In this document: positions 9,762 through 29,564 of the stretch, piece by piece
Numbering within the stretch: position 1 is the stretch's first letter
Layout of the letters: every line of letters starts with the position of its first letter
Source: Mycolicibacterium cosmeticum
Lineage (GTDB): Bacteria; Actinomycetota; Actinomycetes; Mycobacteriales; Mycobacteriaceae
DNA length: 64,000 bases
Direction of reading: 5' to 3'
Assembly: GCF_000613185.1 (NCBI RefSeq)
Contig: NZ_CCBB010000001.1
Span: forward strand, 1,612,001-1,676,000
Program-made: the position numbers and the translations under genes
Notes under the pieces: generated by a model
Database searches by the model: none
Told to the model about the DNA's origin: nothing
What the model saw: only the letters and a program-made list of their open reading frames with translations

Positions 9762-10604
9762 TCAGCCGGCCAGGTTGAAGTTGCCCGATTGCCCGTACAC
9801 GGCCAGCGAGATCATCACGACGACGAACGCGGAGATGACCAGCGAGGTGCGCACCGCGCGGCCCACCGCCTCGCCGACGCCGGCCGGCCCACCGCTGGCG
9901 GTGAAGCCGTAGAAGGTGTGCACCAGCATGATCACGATGGCCATGGCGATGGACTGCACGAACGACCAGATCAGGTCGACGGGGTTGAGGAACGTGTCGA
10001 AGTAGTGGTCGTAGACGCCGATGGACTGCCCGTAGATGGCGGTGGTGCCGAGTTTGGCCGCCCAGAACGACATCAGCACGCCGACGCAGTACAGCGGGAT
10101 CACCACCACCACACCGGCGATGACGCGGGTGGACGCCAGGTAGGCGACGCTGCGGATGCCGATCACCTCGAGGGCATCGATCTCCTCGTTGATGCGCATG
10201 GCGCCCAGCTGGGCGGTGGCACCGGCGCCGATGGTGGCCGACAACGCGACGGCGGTGGTGCCCGGCGCGATGAGGCGGACGTTGAAGAAGGCCGAGGCGA
10301 AACCGGTGAGCGCTTCGACGCCGATCTCGGCGAACTGGTTGTAGCCCTGCACGGCGACCAGGGCGCCGGTGCTGATGGTGAGGAAGCCGACGATGGCGAC
10401 GGTGCCGCCGATGATGGCCAATGCGCCCGTGCCCAGCCCCATCTGGGCGATGAGCCGGATCAGTTCCTTGGGGTAGTTGATGAAGACGTCGGGTATCGAA
10501 CGCAGGGTGCGGCCGAAGAATTTGGTCTGCACGCCGACCTGGTTCCAGCTGTCGACGACACCGCCGACACCGCGCTTCAGACGGTGCCCCAGCGCGCCGC
10601 TCAC
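9762..10604 (-). CDS. yrbEB: YrbE-type permease subunit B of the Mce importer
   Basis: A 280-residue integral membrane protein of the MlaE/YrbE family. It has five or six hydrophobic segments and the conserved EIDALEVIGI motif (residues 148-157) that marks the coupling helix contacting the ATPase (MceG, normally encoded elsewhere). It starts with GTG overlapping the yrbEA stop (GTGA). With yrbEA it forms the inner-membrane permease through which the Mce tunnel delivers lipid. Confidence 0.92.
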   Translation of the reverse strand: MSGALGHRLKRGVGGVVDSWNQVGVQTKFFGRTLRSIPDVFINYPKELIRLIAQMGLGTGALAIIGGTVAIVGFLTISTGALVAVQGYNQFAEIGVEALTGFASAFFNVRLIAPGTTAVALSATIGAGATAQLGAMRINEEIDALEVIGIRSVAYLASTRVIAGVVVVIPLYCVGVLMSFWAAKLGTTAIYGQSIGVYDHYFDTFLNPVDLIWSFVQSIAMAIVIMLVHTFYGFTASGGPAGVGEAVGRAVRTSLVISAFVVVMISLAVYGQSGNFNLAG

Positions 10605-11404
10605 ATCGTGGCCTTCACACCGACCGCCGTCGCGACGACGTTGATGGCGAACAGCGTCATGAACGTGAACACCACCGTCTCGTTCACGGCGTTACCGACA
10701 CCGGCGGGACCACCACCCACCGAAATGCCCTTGTAGCAGGCGATCAGGCCGGCCGCGAGGCCGAACAGCGCGGCCTTGGCCAGCGCGATGACCACGTCGG
10801 CCGGACCGGTCACCAGGGTGAGGCCGGCGACGAAGGCGCCCGGCGATACGTGCTGGATGTACACGCAGAAGAAGTACGCCCCCGTCAGGCCCACCAGCAC
10901 CACCGTGGCCGACAGCGCCAGCGATACCGTCGTCGCCGCGAGCACGCGCGGAATCACCAGTGCCTGAATGGGATTGATGCCCATGACGCGCAGGGCGTCC
11001 AGCTCGTCGCGGATCGTGCGCGCGCCCAGGTCGGCACACATGGCGGTGGCGCCGGCGCCGGCGATCACCAGCACGGTGACGATCGGTCCGATCTGGCTGA
11101 CGGTGCCCAGGGCGGCGCCCGTCCCGGAGAAGTCGGCCGCGCCGAATTCGGTGAGCAGGATGTTGAAGGTGAAGGTCAGCAGCACCGTGTACGGGATGGT
11201 GAGCATCAGCGTCGGCAGGATCGACACCCGCGCGACGAACCAGGCCTGCAGGATGAATTCACGCCAGGCGAACGGCGGCCGCCACATCAGCACGAAGACG
11301 TCCAGCGTCATCGAGAAGAAGCCGCCGAACGCGCGCACGGGTTTTGCGACGACGTCGGGCACCGCGTCGGAGGAGGCCATTAACGACGCCGTCCCGAGCT
11401 GCAC
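10601..11404 (-). CDS. yrbEA: YrbE-type permease subunit A of the Mce importer
   Basis: A 267-residue MlaE/YrbE-family permease, the first gene of the mce operon. It has the conserved DELDALRVMGINP coupling motif in its middle and five to six membrane segments. A GTG at 11404 preceded by GGAAGAG is used here; an in-frame ATG at 11380 is possible. A 179-bp intergenic stretch separates it from the TetR gene and should contain the operon promoter, but no clear -35/-10 pair stood out to me. Confidence 0.9.
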   Translation of the reverse strand: MQLGTASLMASSDAVPDVVAKPVRAFGGFFSMTLDVFVLMWRPPFAWREFILQAWFVARVSILPTLMLTIPYTVLLTFTFNILLTEFGAADFSGTGAALGTVSQIGPIVTVLVIAGAGATAMCADLGARTIRDELDALRVMGINPIQALVIPRVLAATTVSLALSATVVLVGLTGAYFFCVYIQHVSPGAFVAGLTLVTGPADVVIALAKAALFGLAAGLIACYKGISVGGGPAGVGNAVNETVVFTFMTLFAINVVATAVGVKATM

Positions 11405-23575: not shown

Positions 23576-23944
23576 TTACGAGGGAGGGGTGCCGTCCATA
23601 CGCCGCCGGGTCTCGGCGACGGCCCGCCGAATTTCGGCGTTGTCCCTACGTTCGGCGGCGGCCTCCCGGTCGGCCCGGTCCTCCAGACGCTGTAGCCGGG
23701 CGTGCTCGCGCTGTTCGGTGGCGCCCTCGCGTTCGTCGGCCGCCTGCTCACGTTCGTCGGCGGCCTGTTCGCGCTCGTCGGCGATCCGGTCCCGCTCGTC
23801 GGCCACGCGGTCTCGCTCGTCGGCGACCCAGTCGCGCCGGGTCATCTCGGCTTCGTGGCGCGCGACCGTGTGTTCGCGCTGTTCCAAGTCGGCCATCCGC
23901 CGATCCAGTTCGTCCGGCGGGACGGCCCGTTCGTCATTGACCAC
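23576..23944 (-). CDS. Coiled-coil protein with ADERxxx heptad repeats
   Basis: A 122-residue, highly charged protein. Five consecutive heptads (VADERDR, VADERDR, IADEREQ, AADEREQ, AADEREG) between residues 40 and 75 form an almost perfect coiled coil, and the rest is also helical (EQREHARLQRLEDRADREAAAERRDN). No membrane segment is seen. GTG 23944 is preceded by TACGGT five bases upstream. The function is unknown; it could be a scaffold or a DNA- or membrane-associated rod. Confidence 0.65.
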   Translation of the reverse strand: MVNDERAVPPDELDRRMADLEQREHTVARHEAEMTRRDWVADERDRVADERDRIADEREQAADEREQAADEREGATEQREHARLQRLEDRADREAAAERRDNAEIRRAVAETRRRMDGTPPS

Positions 23945-24091
23945 ACCTCACCGTAACGCCAGGTGGGGCCGAAATGCACTGCCTGTGTGACGCCGAAAGC
24001 CTGCGCGCGCTCCGAGCGACGAGTGTGGGCCATATGCACGAAAATCGCACCATCGGCGTGCATAGCCCCCACGCTCGGCAACGCGGGCACG

Positions 24092-24120
24092 CTAGACGTT
24101 GAACCGGAACTCCACCACAT
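24092..24120 (-). repeat. ychF 3'-end remnant, outermost copy (original terminus)
   Basis: Read on the minus strand, it encodes NVVEFRFNV-stop, the usual YchF carboxy terminus. The 16-nt core 24105-24120 is identical to 28504-28519 inside the intact ychF gene. The sequence upstream of the core is unrelated to ychF, so this is a displaced 3' end. Confidence 0.75.
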
Positions 24121-24137
24121 TGCGCAGCCCAACAACG

Positions 24138-24506
24138 TCACTCATCGAACAGTGGGATGCCCACTTCGCTGGAGGCAGCTTTCAACCGCTTGTCCCTGGT
24201 CCATAGGAGCGCACCCTCGACCACGGAGACTGAAGCCATCAGATGGGCATCAGCAGGGCTCAGTCCACGCCCCCAGAGTCGCCGCCGATCAACGAGATAG
24301 AGGATCTCGTCATGCCGCGCGACCGGAAACTGCCACAGGTTCGCCAGCAGATCGAGCACAGTCTCCCGACGGGTGATCGAGCCAAGCGCCAATTCCTCGA
24401 CAACCAATGGATGGCAGCCGACTCCATCCAACTGCAAGTGTTCGACCAGTCCGGGCTCCGCAGCGTGCAGATGATCAATCCACACCGCGGTGTCGACCAG
24501 GATCAC
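24138..24506 (-). CDS. vapC: VapC-type PIN-domain toxin
   Basis: A 122-residue PIN-domain ribonuclease. Acidic metal ligands are visible in MILVDTAVWID (Asp5), VVEELALG (Glu) and SPADAHLMA (Asp), with a final TRDKRL segment. It overlaps vapB by 4 bp, the normal antitoxin-toxin order. In M. tuberculosis ychF is also followed by a vapBC pair (vapBC32), so this is probably the oldest cargo at the site. Such toxins cut specific tRNA or rRNA; the target here is unknown. Confidence 0.9.
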   Translation of the reverse strand: MILVDTAVWIDHLHAAEPGLVEHLQLDGVGCHPLVVEELALGSITRRETVLDLLANLWQFPVARHDEILYLVDRRRLWGRGLSPADAHLMASVSVVEGALLWTRDKRLKAASSEVGIPLFDE

Positions 24507-24700
24507 TCCGAAGTGCTCCGCCGCCGCGGCGCGGCCTTCGCCTGGGAATCGGATCCGCCCAGCGCGGCGAGACGGCGGGCACTCTCCACCCGGATGAGTG
24601 TCTGCAAACCCTGCTTGAGCAGTGCCACACTTTCGTGCACACCGGTCAACTCGGCGGCCTTGGCGAGCAACTCATCGTCGATGGTGACCGTTGTTCTCAC
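24503..24700 (-). CDS. vapB: VapB-type ribbon-helix-helix antitoxin
   Basis: A 65-residue antitoxin. The start GTG 24700 has GGAGGTG six bases upstream and gives VRTTVTIDDELLAKAAELTG, a ribbon-helix-helix DNA-binding strand and helix. The C-terminal half, ending in basic Ala/Arg/Ser-rich sequence, should neutralise VapC. It probably represses its own operon. Confidence 0.88.
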   Translation of the reverse strand: MRTTVTIDDELLAKAAELTGVHESVALLKQGLQTLIRVESARRLAALGGSDSQAKAAPRRRSTSE

Positions 24701-24760
24701 TACGACACCTCCATGCGCATCATTGATGCAGTCCATGATGCCACGGGGGCGGTGGTCCGC

Positions 24761-24789
24761 CTACAACGCGAACCGGAACTCCACCACGT
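24761..24789 (-). repeat. ychF 3'-end remnant, second copy
   Basis: Minus strand encodes [14 protein letters not shown]. The core 24774-24789 differs from the ychF core at one base, and it shares 18 bases with the outermost copy. It marks the boundary between the vapBC module and the middle module. Confidence 0.7.
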
Positions 24790-24801
24790 CCCCCCTTGGT
24801 G

Positions 24802-25077
24802 TTACGACTCCTCGGATAACTGCTCGTGAATCGTCTCCTTGACGATCACCGACCAGACTTCGACGATCTGCCGATTATCGGAGGCGTAGAAAACATGCTC
24901 CGGAAACGAGACCCGTCCGCCGGTGGGCTAAAAACCCGGAAACGCTTGCTGTGGAGTGCACTGAAAGAAGAGCCTGCACGACACCACGCGGTCGTCGCCG
25001 AGCAAGATACCCGGGATGAACTCGAGGTCGGGTATCGCGTCGGTGTCGGTCTGAAGCATCGCCAGATAGCCGCTCAC
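24802..25077 (-). pseudogene. Hypothetical protein with in-frame stop
   Basis: One reading frame from GTG 25077 encodes SGYLAMLQTDTDAIPDLEF... up to a TAG at 24928-24930, then continues in the same frame through PTGGRVSFPEHVFYASDN to a TAA at 24802. The protein-like composition on both sides of the TAG suggests a 90-residue gene broken by one nonsense mutation. I do not recognise the family. Either half could be a short gene in its own right. Confidence 0.4.
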
Positions 25078-25235
25078 ACTATGACGCGACAGGTTGGTGG
25101 CCGGTGAGCTGCCAAGGGCGCGCCGACATCCTGCGCCAGCCCGCCGTCGGGTGGTCAGCTCGCGATTCAGGGCCCGGGCAAACTACGCTCGCAGATGACC
25201 GCGGCGGGCGAGACGACCGGCTGCCCCTGCGATGA

Positions 25236-25379
25236 ATGCTCCCCGCACTTCCGCTCACCGATCTGAAGGCCCACACCGCGCTGCGGCACGTGAGCAAGCC
25301 GAAGCCGTGTTCTTCGGCCGTGGCCAGTCTGGTCAGCCACTACGACTGCCCCAAGTGCGGCGGTTGGGTGCCAACTTGA
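25236..25379 (+). CDS. Possible small zinc-ribbon protein
   Basis: A 47-residue reading frame ending in SHYDCPKCGGWVPT-stop; the CPKC pair suggests half of a zinc ribbon, possibly the 3' scrap of a larger lost gene. It is on the strand opposite to the rest of the island and has no clear ribosome-binding site. The rest of 25.08-25.43 kb shows nothing else convincing. Confidence 0.25.
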   Translation: MLPALPLTDLKAHTALRHVSKPKPCSSAVASLVSHYDCPKCGGWVPT

Positions 25380-25434
25380 CAACAAGTCAGTAGGACTAAA
25401 AGTGCGGACTAGTGGCGGCTTGACTGCCGGTCAC

Positions 25435-25704
25435 TTAGCCGCGGTCAACGGTGTTATAGCGTCCTTGCCGTACCCCTGCCACGGTCTCCAACAGGCGGTG
25501 CGCCATCGACTCAGCCTCCTCCACCGACATCATGACTATGGCGGGCTGATGCGCCGGATTTCCCGCCCGTAAACGCGGCTCGAAATGGCCAAATGGCCAC
25601 AATGAAATAGATACGTCCGTCACATTTCCGTACTGATCAACCGTGGCCGAGGACTCGACATGGGGGTTTACATCAAATTCCGTGAAGCTCATGCTCACAT
25701 GCAC
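25435..25704 (-). CDS. Hypothetical protein in the HNH operon
   Basis: An 89-residue protein, starting at GTG 25704 with a strong GGAGGT site 7 nt upstream. It contains a short beta-rich part (ATVDQYGNVTDVSISLWPFG) and a C-terminal helix (SVEEAESMAHRLLETVAGV). It lies 42 bp after the HNH gene on the same strand, so it could be a partner or immunity protein. No family was recognised. Confidence 0.55.
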   Translation of the reverse strand: MHVSMSFTEFDVNPHVESSATVDQYGNVTDVSISLWPFGHFEPRLRAGNPAHQPAIVMMSVEEAESMAHRLLETVAGVRQGRYNTVDRG

Positions 25705-25746
25705 GCAAAATACCTCCGGGTAGTGCGACTTTTCCTGTCGGCAGAA

Positions 25747-26691
25747 TCAAGCAGACGCGACCTTGTTCGACTTGGTGCGGTTACACTTCCAGCAAAGAGT
25801 CTGCAAATTCTCCGGAGTCGACAGACCGCCCCGCGAGACAGGGACTATATGGTCAACCTCCAGTAGGAGGTGTGGCTCTGCGGCGAGCGATACCGAGCAA
25901 TACCGGCAGGTGTGATTGTCGCGGGACTTGATCGAGTTGCGGAGCCTGGAGGTCATTAACGCGCGTTGGCCTGCAGCAGTCTTCCTCCAACGGATCTTCT
26001 GAGAGAGAGTCTCGATCAAGGCGTCGATGGTCGGCGTGTCGAATGTGACCGTCGCGCGCTGCGAGCTGTTCCCACCTGCGCTGACGTACTCGAATACGTA
26101 TATCGGGTAGGGAACAGTAATAGGCGATAATTGGACTCCGATATGCTCCATGAACTCGCCTGCGTAATGCTTCAAGATGAAGGCGGGCGGATTAATCGCT
26201 TGGGTGATACTCGCCTCACGCTGCTGAAGGTTGTAAACGGCATCCTGGAGCCGGGCGATATCGTCGCCGAGATTCTCAACGTCGGCAAGATGAGCCTCGT
26301 CAGCCTTAATGTTGAAGTACTTCATGACGTACTTCAACGGGTCTCCGCTGGCGTTCCGGACCACCTGCAACGAACAGTTATGAACATTGGGTGCGTGGTA
26401 GCTAGCTACGTTCCGGTCCCTGCGATAGTTCCAGTTGCTCGTGTTCTGGAACGATGCCAGATGGGCCTGCGATCCGGTATACGACGCACCGAGCTCAAAC
26501 GTCCCGCGACTCCGGATCTCCGAAATGTAGTGTGCAAGCTCGTTGTGCTCACGCACGAACGAAGCGATTCGATTCTTATGAGCCAAGAACTCTTCGCTGG
26601 CGAAGTACCGCTCTTTGAGAATGTACCGGCCGATCCGGTATGCGCCCCAGCCCGCAAGAGCGACGATGCCGATCAGTAGGAGAGCTTCCAT
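25747..26691 (-). CDS. Membrane-anchored HNH endonuclease
   Basis: A 314-residue protein. A membrane helix occupies residues 1-22 (EALLLIGIVALAGWGAYRIG). A middle region of about 220 residues includes a coiled-coil stretch (residues about 145-175). The C-terminal 60 residues form an HNH nuclease with two CxxC pairs (CRYC, CWKC), the DHIVPVSRGG core and the later Asn. ATG 26691 is used; a GTG at 26718 would add nine residues. A membrane-tethered nuclease in a cargo island suggests action on incoming DNA, but that is inference. The gene is A/T-rich compared with its surroundings. Confidence 0.7.
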   Translation of the reverse strand: MEALLLIGIVALAGWGAYRIGRYILKERYFASEEFLAHKNRIASFVREHNELAHYISEIRSRGTFELGASYTGSQAHLASFQNTSNWNYRRDRNVASYHAPNVHNCSLQVVRNASGDPLKYVMKYFNIKADEAHLADVENLGDDIARLQDAVYNLQQREASITQAINPPAFILKHYAGEFMEHIGVQLSPITVPYPIYVFEYVSAGGNSSQRATVTFDTPTIDALIETLSQKIRWRKTAAGQRALMTSRLRNSIKSRDNHTCRYCSVSLAAEPHLLLEVDHIVPVSRGGLSTPENLQTLCWKCNRTKSNKVASA

Positions 26692-27004
26692 ATTGTCAGA
26701 GGTCCTTTGCCCGTTCACCTGTCAAGCGAACGGACTCTAACAAGGAGCAACGACAAGCTTCTTCGAAAAGCTGAAATCAGTGGAGTCAGGTTCGGACGGG
26801 CCTCGCCTCTCGGACCCGGCCGTTTACGTCGGTCCAAGTGACAGCAAACGAGCAGTCGGTGCAACGTGCCCTCAGCCCCCTTCGCTAAGTCGCGCTACTT
26901 CGGGCAACGTCCTGCGGGGTGACGATGAGGTCACGGCGGTCCGAGAGCCCACGGGCGAGGCGCGCCGGTTCGCCGGCGAATAGATATGACTGACCGCGAA
27001 GCGC
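26692..27004. other. Intergenic region, no gene recognised
   Basis: 313 bases between the HNH gene and the HTH gene. A TTGACA hexamer lies just before the HNH start on the minus strand (about 26719-26724), but no matching -10 box was convincing. Short open frames here have no protein-like features. Confidence 0.5.
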
Positions 27005-27415
27005 TCACCTGTCGGACAGCGCCCTTACGTCCTCCGGCAGGAACGCGCAGACACCGGGCGTACCGGTCGGCTTCGCTTCGATGCGGCCACTGCGAACAGC
27101 GTCCATGAACGCCGCGGGGCCGAGACCCGACTGTTGCTGGGCGTCGTCGGCGGGCACCATGCCTCCCGGCACCACGTCACGGCGAGCGACCGCCCTCCGG
27201 TTTGCCCTGGCAACGTGCGGCTGGTTCATGTCACTGACCAGACCGCCAATCTCTTTCTGGGACAGACCGGCGCGGATCGCGTTGACGATCAGCCCGTCGC
27301 GAATCACCAGAGCGATGTAGTCCTGGGTGCGGGCGCTTTGGTACTCGTGCTCGGCCTCAGCCAGAGCGGTGCGGATCGCTTCTTGGCGCGCGTGTACCTC
27401 TTCTGTAGTCAACAT
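27005..27415 (-). CDS. HTH-domain protein, possible regulator or antitoxin
   Basis: A 136-residue protein from ATG 27415. A charged N-terminal helix (LTTEEVHARQEAIRTALAEA) is followed by a helix-turn-helix (IRAGLSQKEIGGLVSDMNQ, about residues 47-65) and a C-terminal segment ending in FLPEDVRALSDR that resembles a small second HTH-like unit. The start codon is embedded in a direct repeat that looks like an operator, so self-regulation is likely. It may control the downstream HNH module. Confidence 0.6.
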   Translation of the reverse strand: MLTTEEVHARQEAIRTALAEAEHEYQSARTQDYIALVIRDGLIVNAIRAGLSQKEIGGLVSDMNQPHVARANRRAVARRDVVPGGMVPADDAQQQSGLGPAAFMDAVRSGRIEAKPTGTPGVCAFLPEDVRALSDR

Positions 27416-27416
27416 A

Positions 27417-27439
27417 TATACCAGGCTGGCATATACCAG
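27417..27439. promoter_or_regulatory. Direct repeat TATACCAG x2 at the HTH gene start
   Basis: TATACCAG occurs at about 27418-27425 and 27433-27440, 15 bp apart, directly before the ATG at 27415. A related GGTATGC follows. This spacing and position suit an autoregulatory operator. Confidence 0.45.
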
Positions 27440-27485
27440 AGTGGGTATGCAACCACTTCTCGGAGCGAGCACGAAATATGCTTGT

Positions 27486-27532
27486 TCAGGTTGACCAGAC
27501 CCATTGCTGGAAACGGAAGTCCACTACCTCGC
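27486..27532 (-). repeat. ychF 3'-end remnant, third (most diverged) copy
   Basis: Minus strand encodes REVVDFRFQQWVWST-stop. The core 27514-27529 has three mismatches to the ychF core. The stop codon of the proteasome-like gene falls inside it. It marks the boundary between the middle and the innermost module. Confidence 0.55.
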
Positions 27533-28456
27533 GGTCGGTGCGTCCGGAGTCACCCCGGGGCCCAAACGCCCCGTCGGCCGACGCGGATCGGTTCCGCTGG
27601 AGGGCGGAGCATCTGGTCCGACCGACTGATCGGACATGGAAATCTTGAGGTAGCCGTCGGCGTATGTTGCGATCCGTCGATCGAACCGCTCGCCATCATT
27701 TATTGGCCGTCCTCCGAAGTGATCGACGCCCTCGGCAGTCCGCCACACGAAGCTCTCGGTTTCGCCGTACTGATATATGCGCAGGAGCTGCGGCACTCCT
27801 CCCACAGTTCGAACGGTGACGTCTCCGATGAGATCCATGAGCACTTCCAACGGCTCCCAGTCGAGGTTGGCGTCTCGGGCCATGTCTTCCGCCTCCGGGT
27901 GCCCCGCAATCGGAACTGGGAGACCGCGCACTTCTTTGAGACGGTGCAGCCGGGCCCGGGCCTCGCTGCTGGCATCCCCGGCGAAGTAGATGCCATAGGC
28001 ACGCTCTGGGTATAGCTCAGGCAGAGGGTGCATTCTGAGAACCCCGGAACCGTCGTATCTGTACGAATACGCCTCGAACCGCAGCCGCCGCCACGACCAT
28101 CCCATCAACACCACGTCGAGTTCGGGTACGTCCGGTTCAGTAGCCCCTGAGTGCAGGTCGCTAACACCCGCACGGCTGTCCGCGTATACATCTGCGAGCT
28201 TGCGCGCCAGGTATCCGATATCAGTCCGCCCAGAACGATTGCCGTCGAGCAGCAAACAGAGGTTAGTCGCCTGAATCAAGAACGCGTACGCGGCGGTCGC
28301 CTCGCCCGACATCGCGATTGCCGTCGCGGGGCGAGGCAGCGGCATCAGCTTGGGGCACTTGTCCCACGACTCCCCTCCGCTGAGACGCGAGTCCGCGACC
28401 GCAACGAGTTCCCGGAGTGTCTCGTTCTGGCGGACCCAGACCGCCACGAGTGTCAT
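27524..28456 (-). CDS. Proteasome-like Ntn-hydrolase (HslV/proteasome-beta fold), island cargo
   Basis: A 310-residue protein. The N-terminus (MTLVAVWV...ELVAVADSRLSGG...CPKLMPL...AIAMSGEATAAYAF) follows the proteasome/HslV pattern: Thr2 would be the nucleophile after Met removal, with Asp22 and Lys36 near the expected Asp17 and Lys33. Later FEAYSYRYDGSG and AYGIYFAGDASSEARARL fit the second half of the fold. The C-terminal 100 residues are extra. The gene starts 10 bp after the ychF stop, so it is probably transcribed with ychF. It is not the housekeeping proteasome beta subunit, which is encoded with prcA and pup. The fold call is from motif order only. Confidence 0.55.
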   Translation of the reverse strand: MTLVAVWVRQNETLRELVAVADSRLSGGESWDKCPKLMPLPRPATAIAMSGEATAAYAFLIQATNLCLLLDGNRSGRTDIGYLARKLADVYADSRAGVSDLHSGATEPDVPELDVVLMGWSWRRLRFEAYSYRYDGSGVLRMHPLPELYPERAYGIYFAGDASSEARARLHRLKEVRGLPVPIAGHPEAEDMARDANLDWEPLEVLMDLIGDVTVRTVGGVPQLLRIYQYGETESFVWRTAEGVDHFGGRPINDGERFDRRIATYADGYLKISMSDQSVGPDAPPSSGTDPRRPTGRLGPGVTPDAPTAR

Positions 28457-28466
28457 ATGAGCGCGC

Positions 28467-29564
28467 CTAGACCTTGCTCTTCGAGGTAGACGTTGTTCCA
28501 AAGCGGAACTCCACCACATCCCCGTCGGCCATCACGTAATCCTTGCCCTCCATCCGGACCTTGCCGGCGGCCTTGGCGGCGGCCATCGAGCCGGCCTCCA
28601 TCAGGTCCTCGAAGGACACGATCTCGGCCTTGATGAAGCCCTTCTCGAAGTCGCTGTGGATCACCCCGGCGGCCTTCGGCGCGGTGTCGCCGCGGTGAAT
28701 CGTCCAGGCGCGCGCCTCTTTCGGGCCCGCGGTCAGATACGTCTGCAGGTTCAGCGTGTGAAAACCGGCGCGCGCCAACGCATCCAGGCCGCGTTCGGTC
28801 TGGCCGATGGACTCCAGCAGCTCGGCGGCCGACTCGTCGTCGAGCTCCTGCAGTTCGGCCTCGATCTTGGCGTCCAGGAACACCGCGTCGGCCGGGGCCA
28901 CCAGCTCGCGCAGCTCCGCGACGCGAGCCGCGTCGGTCAGCACCGACTCGTCGGCGTTGAACACGTACAGGAACGGTTTGGTGGTGAGCAGGTTCAGCTC
29001 GCGTAGCACCGACCAGTCCTGCCCGGTCGAAAACAGGGTCTTACCGCTGTCGAACACGGCCTGGGCCGCCAGCGCCGCCTCCAGCACCGGCTTGCGGTCC
29101 TTGTTGTTGCGGGCTTCCTTCTCCAGCCGCGGCACCGCCTTCTCCAGCGTCTGCATATCGGCCAGGATCAGCTCGGTCTCGATCACCTCGATATCGGAGC
29201 GTGGGTCCACCCGGCCGTCCACGTGCACCACGTCGTCGTCGGCGAACACCCGCACCACCTGACAGATGGCGTCACACTCGCGGATGTTGGCCAGGAACTT
29301 GTTGCCCAGCCCGGCGCCCTCGGAGGCACCCTTGACGATGCCGGCGATATCGACGAAGGTCACCGGCGCCGGCACGGTCTTCTCCGAGCCGAACACCTTG
29401 GCCAGCGCGTCCAGCCGCGGATCGGGCAGCGCGACCACGCCCTCGTTGGGTTCGATCGTCGCGAACGGGTAGTTGGCCGCCAGCACGTCGTTCCGGGTCA
29501 ACGCGTTGAAGAGCGTCGACTTGCCCACGTTCGGTAATCCGACGATTCCCAGGTTCAAGCTCAC
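28467..29564 (-). CDS. ychF: Redox-regulated ATPase/GTPase YchF with replaced C-terminus
   Basis: A 365-residue Obg-family P-loop NTPase that binds ATP and associates with ribosomes. Visible are the P-loop GLPNVGKST, the [17 protein letters not shown] switch, FNADES (the NxxE variant that favours ATP) and the C-terminal TGS-like domain. Family members end in ...FNV; here the end is VVEFRF followed by [10 protein letters not shown], an altered ten-residue tail brought by the inserted island. GTG 29564 is preceded by GGAG and by a TAGACT box nine bases upstream. The protein should still be functional. Confidence 0.93.
28504..28519 (-). repeat. ychF 3'-end core, copy inside the intact gene
   Basis: The 16-nt core within ychF (codons for D-VVEFR). 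Identical to 24105-24120; presumed insertion site of the cargo modules. Confidence 0.7.

Follow-up and report, generated by a model that had tools for sequence, protein, structure and literature searches.

The intact ychF gene of Mycolicibacterium cosmeticum is followed, on its own strand, by further copies of its 3' end, with other genes lying between them. How did this arrangement arise, and what do the copies represent? We addressed this question in a 64,000-nucleotide (nt) stretch of contig NZ_CCBB010000001.1 (positions 1,612,001 to 1,676,000), referred to here as the window, and in the ychF loci of other genomes. An initial annotation of the window had suggested three successive insertions at the ychF 3' end and had left their mechanism unknown. 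We propose that this 3' end is the attachment site (attB) of a clade of large serine integrases (LSR) carried on phage- or satellite-like elements of approximately 10 to 17 kb and that stacked rounds of integration made the window's array. We assign this reading a probability of about 0.88.

Repeats of the ychF end and their half-sites

We searched both strands of the window with the 17-mer GTGGTGGAGTTCCGGTT, allowing up to 3 mismatches. This search returned exactly four sites on the minus strand (28517, 27527, 24787, and 24118) and no plus-strand match anywhere in the window, in agreement with the four same-strand copies counted previously. The C-termini quoted in the initial annotation were correct on re-reading, and the 16-nt identity that it reported between the first and last copies was recovered by eye as ATGTGGTGGAGTTCCG. 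The copy at 27527 (the 27.5-kb copy), with 3 mismatches, is the weakest of the four. The 15-mer core GGTGGAGTTCCGSTT matched the window exactly three times, always at this locus and within 4.4 kb; with up to 3 mismatches, it gave 10 matches versus 3.66 expected. Across the whole 6.46-Mb genome, the core with at most 1 mismatch occurs at four sites, namely, the three exact copies, all at this locus, and a single one-mismatch site elsewhere. The reversed pattern, used as a control, gave 3 matches. The repeats at the ychF end are real.

The anatomy of the repeats suggests that they are LSR attachment sites and not bare duplicates of ychF. We denote the gene's own left and right half-sites B and B' and those of the incoming attP site P and P'. 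For each of eight loci, we reconstructed the implied attP by fusing the right half found at ychF with the left half of the site at the far edge of the insertion (the far site). When the left arms were compared with the reverse complement of the right arms, identity reached 0.66 on the axis GG|TGG; no other shift scored exceeded 0.34. Furthermore, the outer motif CAACGTC lies at +14 to +20 in native B' and at +19 to +25 in P' of the GxxSTSK type (right half only). This 5-bp displacement is the offset of the outer (ZD) motif between attB and attP that Rutherford and colleagues describe for LSRs (accessible text of PMC3783163). By these half-site rules, the window site at 28517 is B-P' (attL) and that at 24118 is P-B' (attR); the P' half of the former carries CAACGTC at +19 to +25 and is of the type found in LSR elements L054 and L062. 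The odd replacement tail noticed in the intact ychF corresponds to an attP half-site. Conversely, the outermost remnant, previously taken for a plain copy of the gene end, is an attR-type hybrid of a P half and the native end and would mark the outermost insertion boundary. Symmetric attP arms, the 5-bp motif shift, and hybrid attL and attR sites with an empty attB in relatives are all features of LSR elements, and we replace the unknown mechanism of the initial annotation with this one.

We infer that the integrase would catalyze crossover at a GT dinucleotide within the VVEFRF codons (..GG|TGGAG..). The attP half joined to ychF would then become a substitute tail with the reading frame kept, the native end would move to the far edge as attR (P half plus EFRFNV), and repeated rounds at the same place would stack insertions. 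In the window, the vapBC unit, with its attR at 24118, would be the older arrival, and the insertion bounded by the attL at 28517 and the displaced end at 24787 would be the younger. The integrase gene would since have been lost, or would never have been in the unit, leaving the co-oriented cargo.

LSR-bearing elements at ychF in other genomes

A YchF match at E ≤ 0.001, in a few cases weak, was obtained in 196 of 198 genomes of the genus. The 141 loci studied in detail comprise the window, 120 loci of the genus, and 20 further genomes (6 from other families). The 120 loci were hand-picked among the matches listed for the 198 genomes, most similar YchF first, and are not a random sample; some genomes were left out, mostly with ychF close to a contig end. 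The ychF tail was the native FNV in 112 of the 141 loci and a substitute in 29, window included. Substitute tails fall into recurrent families (GxxSTSK.., HGATTK.., HGQPSxxK.., QATSGQQ.., and QTTSGGK..), and tail state requires at least 25 changes on the ychF tree. Loci L135, L140, L147, and L189 have substitute tails and neither a far site (up to 2 mismatches) nor an LSR of the clade in approximately 34 kb; these tails seem to have outlived their elements. An LSR was present in 8 of the 29 substitute-tail loci versus 0 of the 112 FNV loci, a comparison of unequal depth (for 15 loci, each having a substitute tail, the sequence was extended by 14 to 20 kb) that is superseded by the whole-genome profile search below.

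Eight loci (L054, L058, L120, L062, L117, L069, L101, and L199) each hold a complete element, 10.2 to 17.0 kb long, that runs from the substitute tail to the far site. In all eight, a serine recombinase gene of one clade adjoins the far site, which is P-B' with a native VEFRF-type end in seven and a P-P' junction in L069. Both of the recombinases that were scanned contain the Resolvase and Recombinase domains (PF00239 and PF07508); the others were assigned by similarity, with observed pairwise identities of 43 to 66%. With Pfam and PHROGs, a terminase was detected in each of L054, L058, and L062; L062 also has a primase-helicase. With packaging or replication genes in a small element, as in phage-inducible chromosomal islands (PICI) and other phage satellites, at least these three are probably phage- or satellite-like. 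In L069/L215, at 16.4 to 18.4 kb behind ychF, the complete LSR element is followed by three more att-like sites, a stack in one genome. The LSR of L120 (genome G045) is split into two open reading frames (ORFs), perhaps an early stage of decay.

We ran a profile of seven element LSRs over the 198 genomes. Eight genomes scored at least 499 bits, and the next score was 369 bits; the query alignment itself includes six of the eight but neither G045 nor G195. In all eight, the LSR lies 8 to 17 kb from ychF. G195, previously unexamined, was found by the profile and then checked, and it proved to hold a ninth element, as predicted: the LSR match starts at 2383444, a native-type core lies just outside at 2383408, and ychF (2393152-2394234) ends in HGATTKSK. 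Thus, LSR elements occur at ychF in nine other genomes, which bears out the expectation that some versions of the locus would carry a recombinase. A search of named genomes gave 28 LSR loci, and the 14 with at least 36% identity were checked. Among the 11 loci whose identity was 48% or more, 10 (Mycobacterium, Lentzea, Asanoa, Nonomuraea, and Skermania; two are L054 and L058 again) had a P half plus native ychF end approximately 25 to 50 nt upstream of the LSR match, and none was seen beside the three LSRs at 36 to 38%. Six of 28 viral contigs were also checked: three contained P-B', one P-P' (L232), one was ambiguous, and one started at the contig edge. The P-P' site of L232, found by profile search, has mirrored 8-bp arms as judged by eye. 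An exact-pattern scan of IMG/VR with one attP consensus (GxxSTSK right half) had given 0 matches, the pattern being too strict. A tblastn search of named phages with one LSR gave 1054 records, all below 60% identity (best listed, approximately 35%), and none was used for attP.

Remnants, order of insertions, and small units

We collected 81 remnants in 58 loci, namely, all core matches (15 nt, up to 2 mismatches) lying no more than 18.5 kb from ychF, together with the window copy at 27527. They comprise 25 P-B', 2 P-P', 4 P-?, 13 B-B', 3 B-?, and 1 B-P' sites, together with 33 sites whose left half was unclassified. The scoring matrix for P was built from 8 of the 31 P-type remnants, so that 23 are independent. 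The two P-P' junctions (L069@16413 and L127@891) look as expected if a second element entered the attL of a first. We next compared the DNA behind 57 B' remnants with the DNA directly after ychF in other genomes; the window copy at 24787, with a decayed right half, was excluded. Empty sites in relatives, anticipated by the initial annotation, were found for 21 of the 57, including window copy 24118, which match in register; among random positions, 6 of 1000 did so, and among distance-matched ones, 30 of 1531. Examples are L034@1086 against L185 (88.5% over 400 nt), L035@1395 against L108 (84% over 403 nt), and L050@744 against L036 (82% over 395 nt). The remaining 36 gave no in-register match.

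The order of events in the window can be approached from an intermediate state in other genomes. In G011 (L182), ychF with the FNV end is followed directly by vapBC, and the window DNA past 24787 matches this junction at 81.6% over 381 nt. The same flank matches G099 (L100) at its site at 745 (85% over 390 nt), a site with 3 mismatches that lies outside the 81 remnants and whose P half was read by eye. The order in G099 is ychF (FNV), a methyltransferase-like gene on the opposite strand (both our reading), a P-B' site, vapBC, and P-B'. We therefore suggest that vapBC came first and that other cargo entered later between vapBC and ychF, differing in G099 and the window. In this order, the 24787 copy would be a displaced ychF end. 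These comparisons give good support to two events in the window, the arrival of a vapBC unit and a later insertion separating it from ychF, with a third, at the 27.5-kb copy, only possible. Successive insertion at the ychF 3' end is thus upheld by substitute tails, displaced termini, empty sites, and the different cargo that G099 and the window carry before the same vapBC unit, the last having been predicted as differing cargo between matching remnants. The count of three insertions, each bringing a substitute tail, needs revision, given the weak 27.5-kb copy and the FNV-leaving insertions that exist elsewhere.

Several observations weigh against the LSR proposal. At a cutoff of 1e-60, the profile search found no LSR of the clade in the window's whole genome. 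The 24787 copy has no recognizable P half on its left (score of 0.4 versus a cutoff of 1.4; B-like), and the match of the window copy at 24118 to the empty site of G154 (L071), 78% from the first base, is short (83 nt). The left half of attB shows no clear outer motif. The left half is not P-type in 50 of the 81 remnants, neither half could be classified in 10, and some remnants are probably chance matches. Among the 112 FNV loci, 16 have a P-type remnant downstream despite the native ychF tail, which plain attB × attP integration fails to explain; the native end may have been regained, or it may have been received from a unit with a P-B' site. Finally, L262 (M. neoaurum) has an LSR of the clade at 10001-11359 with no adjacent att site, though a partial ychF is in the locus.

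The absence of a visible integrase near the window's ychF, reported in the initial annotation, agrees with both tblastn and Pfam matches. Using LSR and partly faulty tyrosine-integrase queries, tblastn found nothing in the 16 kb behind ychF. The sole PF07508 match of the genome is on another contig (G000:C2:453010-453393) and is approximately 26% identical to the ychF LSR clade, and the nearest listed PF00589 match is approximately 100 kb away. The window would thus be at most a relic or a non-autonomous unit.

Many remnants follow single genes or toxin-antitoxin (TA) pairs. With the eight LSR-bound sites left out, a co-oriented ORF of at least 70 amino acids (aa) ends 10 to 40 nt ahead of the axis at 32 of 73 remnants, versus 153 of 2137 control positions. 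Toxin-like genes (VapC/PIN or ParE; five by Pfam, the others by similarity to those) account for 12 of the 32. In 6 of the 31 P-type remnants, the stop codon is the TGA of a TGACGTT-like half-site; among these is the window, in which the TGA stop of vapC (24140-24138) falls within the P half-site TGACGTT. Of the 141 loci, 14, including the window, carry a vapC related to this one behind ychF; on the ychF tree, the 12 carriers above 60% identity require 12 changes, one for each. In five genomes, the flanks past the repeat of vapC-carrying loci have no in-register similarity. The patchy distribution favors repeated acquisition over a single ancient insertion held in common, which the initial annotation had taken the vapBC32 pair after ychF in M. 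tuberculosis to hint at. Together with the dissimilar flanks, we read it as repeated movement of small units, with losses or decay also possible.

These small units may instead be leftovers of full LSR elements produced by internal deletion, with nothing cassette-like on the move, an explanation that we place a little short of even odds. Deletion is common in islands, and decay exists here, as in the split LSR of L120. In complete elements, however, the position just inside the far site is taken by the LSR gene, whereas at the 32 remnants other co-oriented ORFs end there; moreover, tblastn found no LSR sequence in the 141 loci outside complete elements, and the same vapC family precedes the unrelated flanks of the five genomes. 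A more tentative idea, which we rate as less likely than not, is that ychF stands at the head of an array that resembles an integron but is served by serine integrases. Its cassettes, non-autonomous and approximately 0.2 to 1 kb long, often a single TA operon with its stop in the attP half-site, would pass from species to species and dock behind ychF with LSR-bearing phage satellites acting in trans, and a P-B' cassette site would leave a native FNV end plus a site free for the next cassette. Integron cassettes follow a gene-site-gene-site order behind one locus, are often co-oriented, and carry TA genes. The ychF arrays share these three traits; their sites, in contrast, are LSR-type half-sites. 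Neither IntI nor attC was encountered, although no search was aimed at attC, and tblastn found no tyrosine integrase beside the small-unit sites, a weak negative since at least two query ORFs were in the wrong frame.

The remaining explanations concern the repeats themselves. The B-B' repeats, and perhaps the vapBC unit as well, could stem from a tyrosine integrase that used a longer core at the same site as the LSR elements. A restored gene 3' end is usual for tyrosine integrases, and the 13 B-B' remnants and the FNV ychF genes with downstream repeats resemble one. We consider this improbable: ORFs from tyrosine-integrase loci of the window's genome matched only 2 of the 141 loci by tblastn (L101 and L120), both LSR elements, although this evidence is weak, as at least two queries (L203 and L206) were in the wrong frame and others are doubtful. 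Still, a second recombinase might act at the ychF site. Least likely is duplication of the ychF end by homologous recombination, slippage, or gene conversion, with cargo added by illegitimate recombination, which would suit the B-like left half of 17 of the 81 remnants (13 B-B', 3 B-?, and 1 B-P', including window copies 24787 and 27527) and the approximately 25 nt of ychF-like sequence on the left of L098@175 and L093@5707 but not the foreign P half on the left of 31 of the 81 (8 of which define the matrix), the LSR genes adjoining repeats, the attP symmetry, or the sharp in-register empty sites.

Known systems and features of the window

For the staphylococcal cassette chromosome (SCC) at orfX, it is established that serine recombinases drive tandem accretion at the 3' end of a gene (accessible text of PMC6243372 and PMC10581047). 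Like the ychF array, SCC/SCCmec elements, moved by Ccr recombinases, occupy a site in the 3' end of a conserved gene (orfX, or rlmH) and form tandem islands with direct repeats and recombinase-less pseudo-elements (same portions of PMC6243372 and PMC10581047). The ychF loci likewise show several tandem elements with gene-end repeats, some lacking a recombinase; the likeness noted here is one of arrangement. The host gene and phylum differ, orfX is said in those portions to stay intact whereas the ychF tail is replaced by an attP-coded one, and the ychF elements are phage- or satellite-like (approximately 10 to 17 kb) or small TA units. In Dehalococcoides, islands at ssrA (DsiB, a CcrB homologue) are also tandem behind one single-copy gene, with 20-bp repeats; accretion and cis-mobilizable islands were proposed, and 15 islands lack an integration module (accessible text of PMC3146451). 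There, the target is a transfer-messenger RNA and not a protein tail, the cargo is different, and that text describes no single-operon TA units.

Mycobacterial prophages and candidate PICIs of the same genus include small elements with phage genes, some with serine integrases; the main text of that study, as far as accessible, notes that serine-integrase att sites are not easily predicted and does not mention ychF or Rv1112 (PMC10654092). The term ychF is likewise absent from the accessible main text of a large LSR survey (PMC10083194). For pneumococcal prophages, a partly accessible source lists an attB between a DUF951 gene and ychF. We found nothing on ychF, vapBC, and mycobacteria together in the open-access literature. 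Against that literature, LSR accretion at a gene 3' end is known, whereas the use of ychF as the site, the swapping of tails, and units of cassette size appear to be new. The proposed mechanism would give the highly variable region behind mycobacterial ychF a cause and boundaries and would explain short repeats otherwise taken for chance or decay. It predicts attP/attB pairs for a serine integrase clade with one conserved actinobacterial target (possible integration tools), implies that a conserved GTPase has its C-terminus rewritten by mobile DNA, and points to a way in which TA pairs could spread as near-minimal units.

The features of the window are collected in Table 1. The younger cargo (the two ORFs of 331 and 155 aa and the HNH protein) and vapBC are all oriented like ychF, as the initial annotation had stated. 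We read the likely start of the 331-aa ORF at 28456. By eye, the right half of the weak ychF-end copy tentatively resembles an eroded P' tail of the QATSGQQ type.

Table 1. Coordinates of ychF, attachment-site copies, and cargo genes in the window
Feature	Position	Strand	Remarks
ychF, intact	28467..29564	minus	Substitute C-terminal tail replacing the usual NV
Putative attL	28489..28538	minus	Left half ychF's own (B), right half attP half (P'); axis GG|TGG
Cargo ORF, 331 aa, unknown family	27524..28519	minus	No Pfam, PADLOC, or PHROGs match
Weak ychF-end copy	27499..27548	minus	3 mismatches
Cargo ORF, 155 aa	27005..27472	minus	No Pfam, PADLOC, or PHROGs match
Cargo protein, C-terminal HNH endonuclease domain	25747..26718	minus	PF01844, 2.4e-13; PHROGs HNH
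Displaced ychF right half (decayed B') preceding vapBC	24759..24808	minus	Probable end of younger insertion
vapB antitoxin	24503..24736	minus	PF09957, 1.8e-9
vapC PIN toxin	24138..24506	minus	PF01850, 2.3e-6
Putative attR	24090..24139	minus	P half GACGTTGTT at -25..-17 plus native B' half encoding EFRFNV; P-B' class

Just beyond the attR at 24118, the minus strand (23576-23944) encodes a 122-aa protein rich in ADERDR repeats. Proteins that resemble it by eye terminate at the remnant sites L073@495 and L141@502, so the array may once have extended further in the window.

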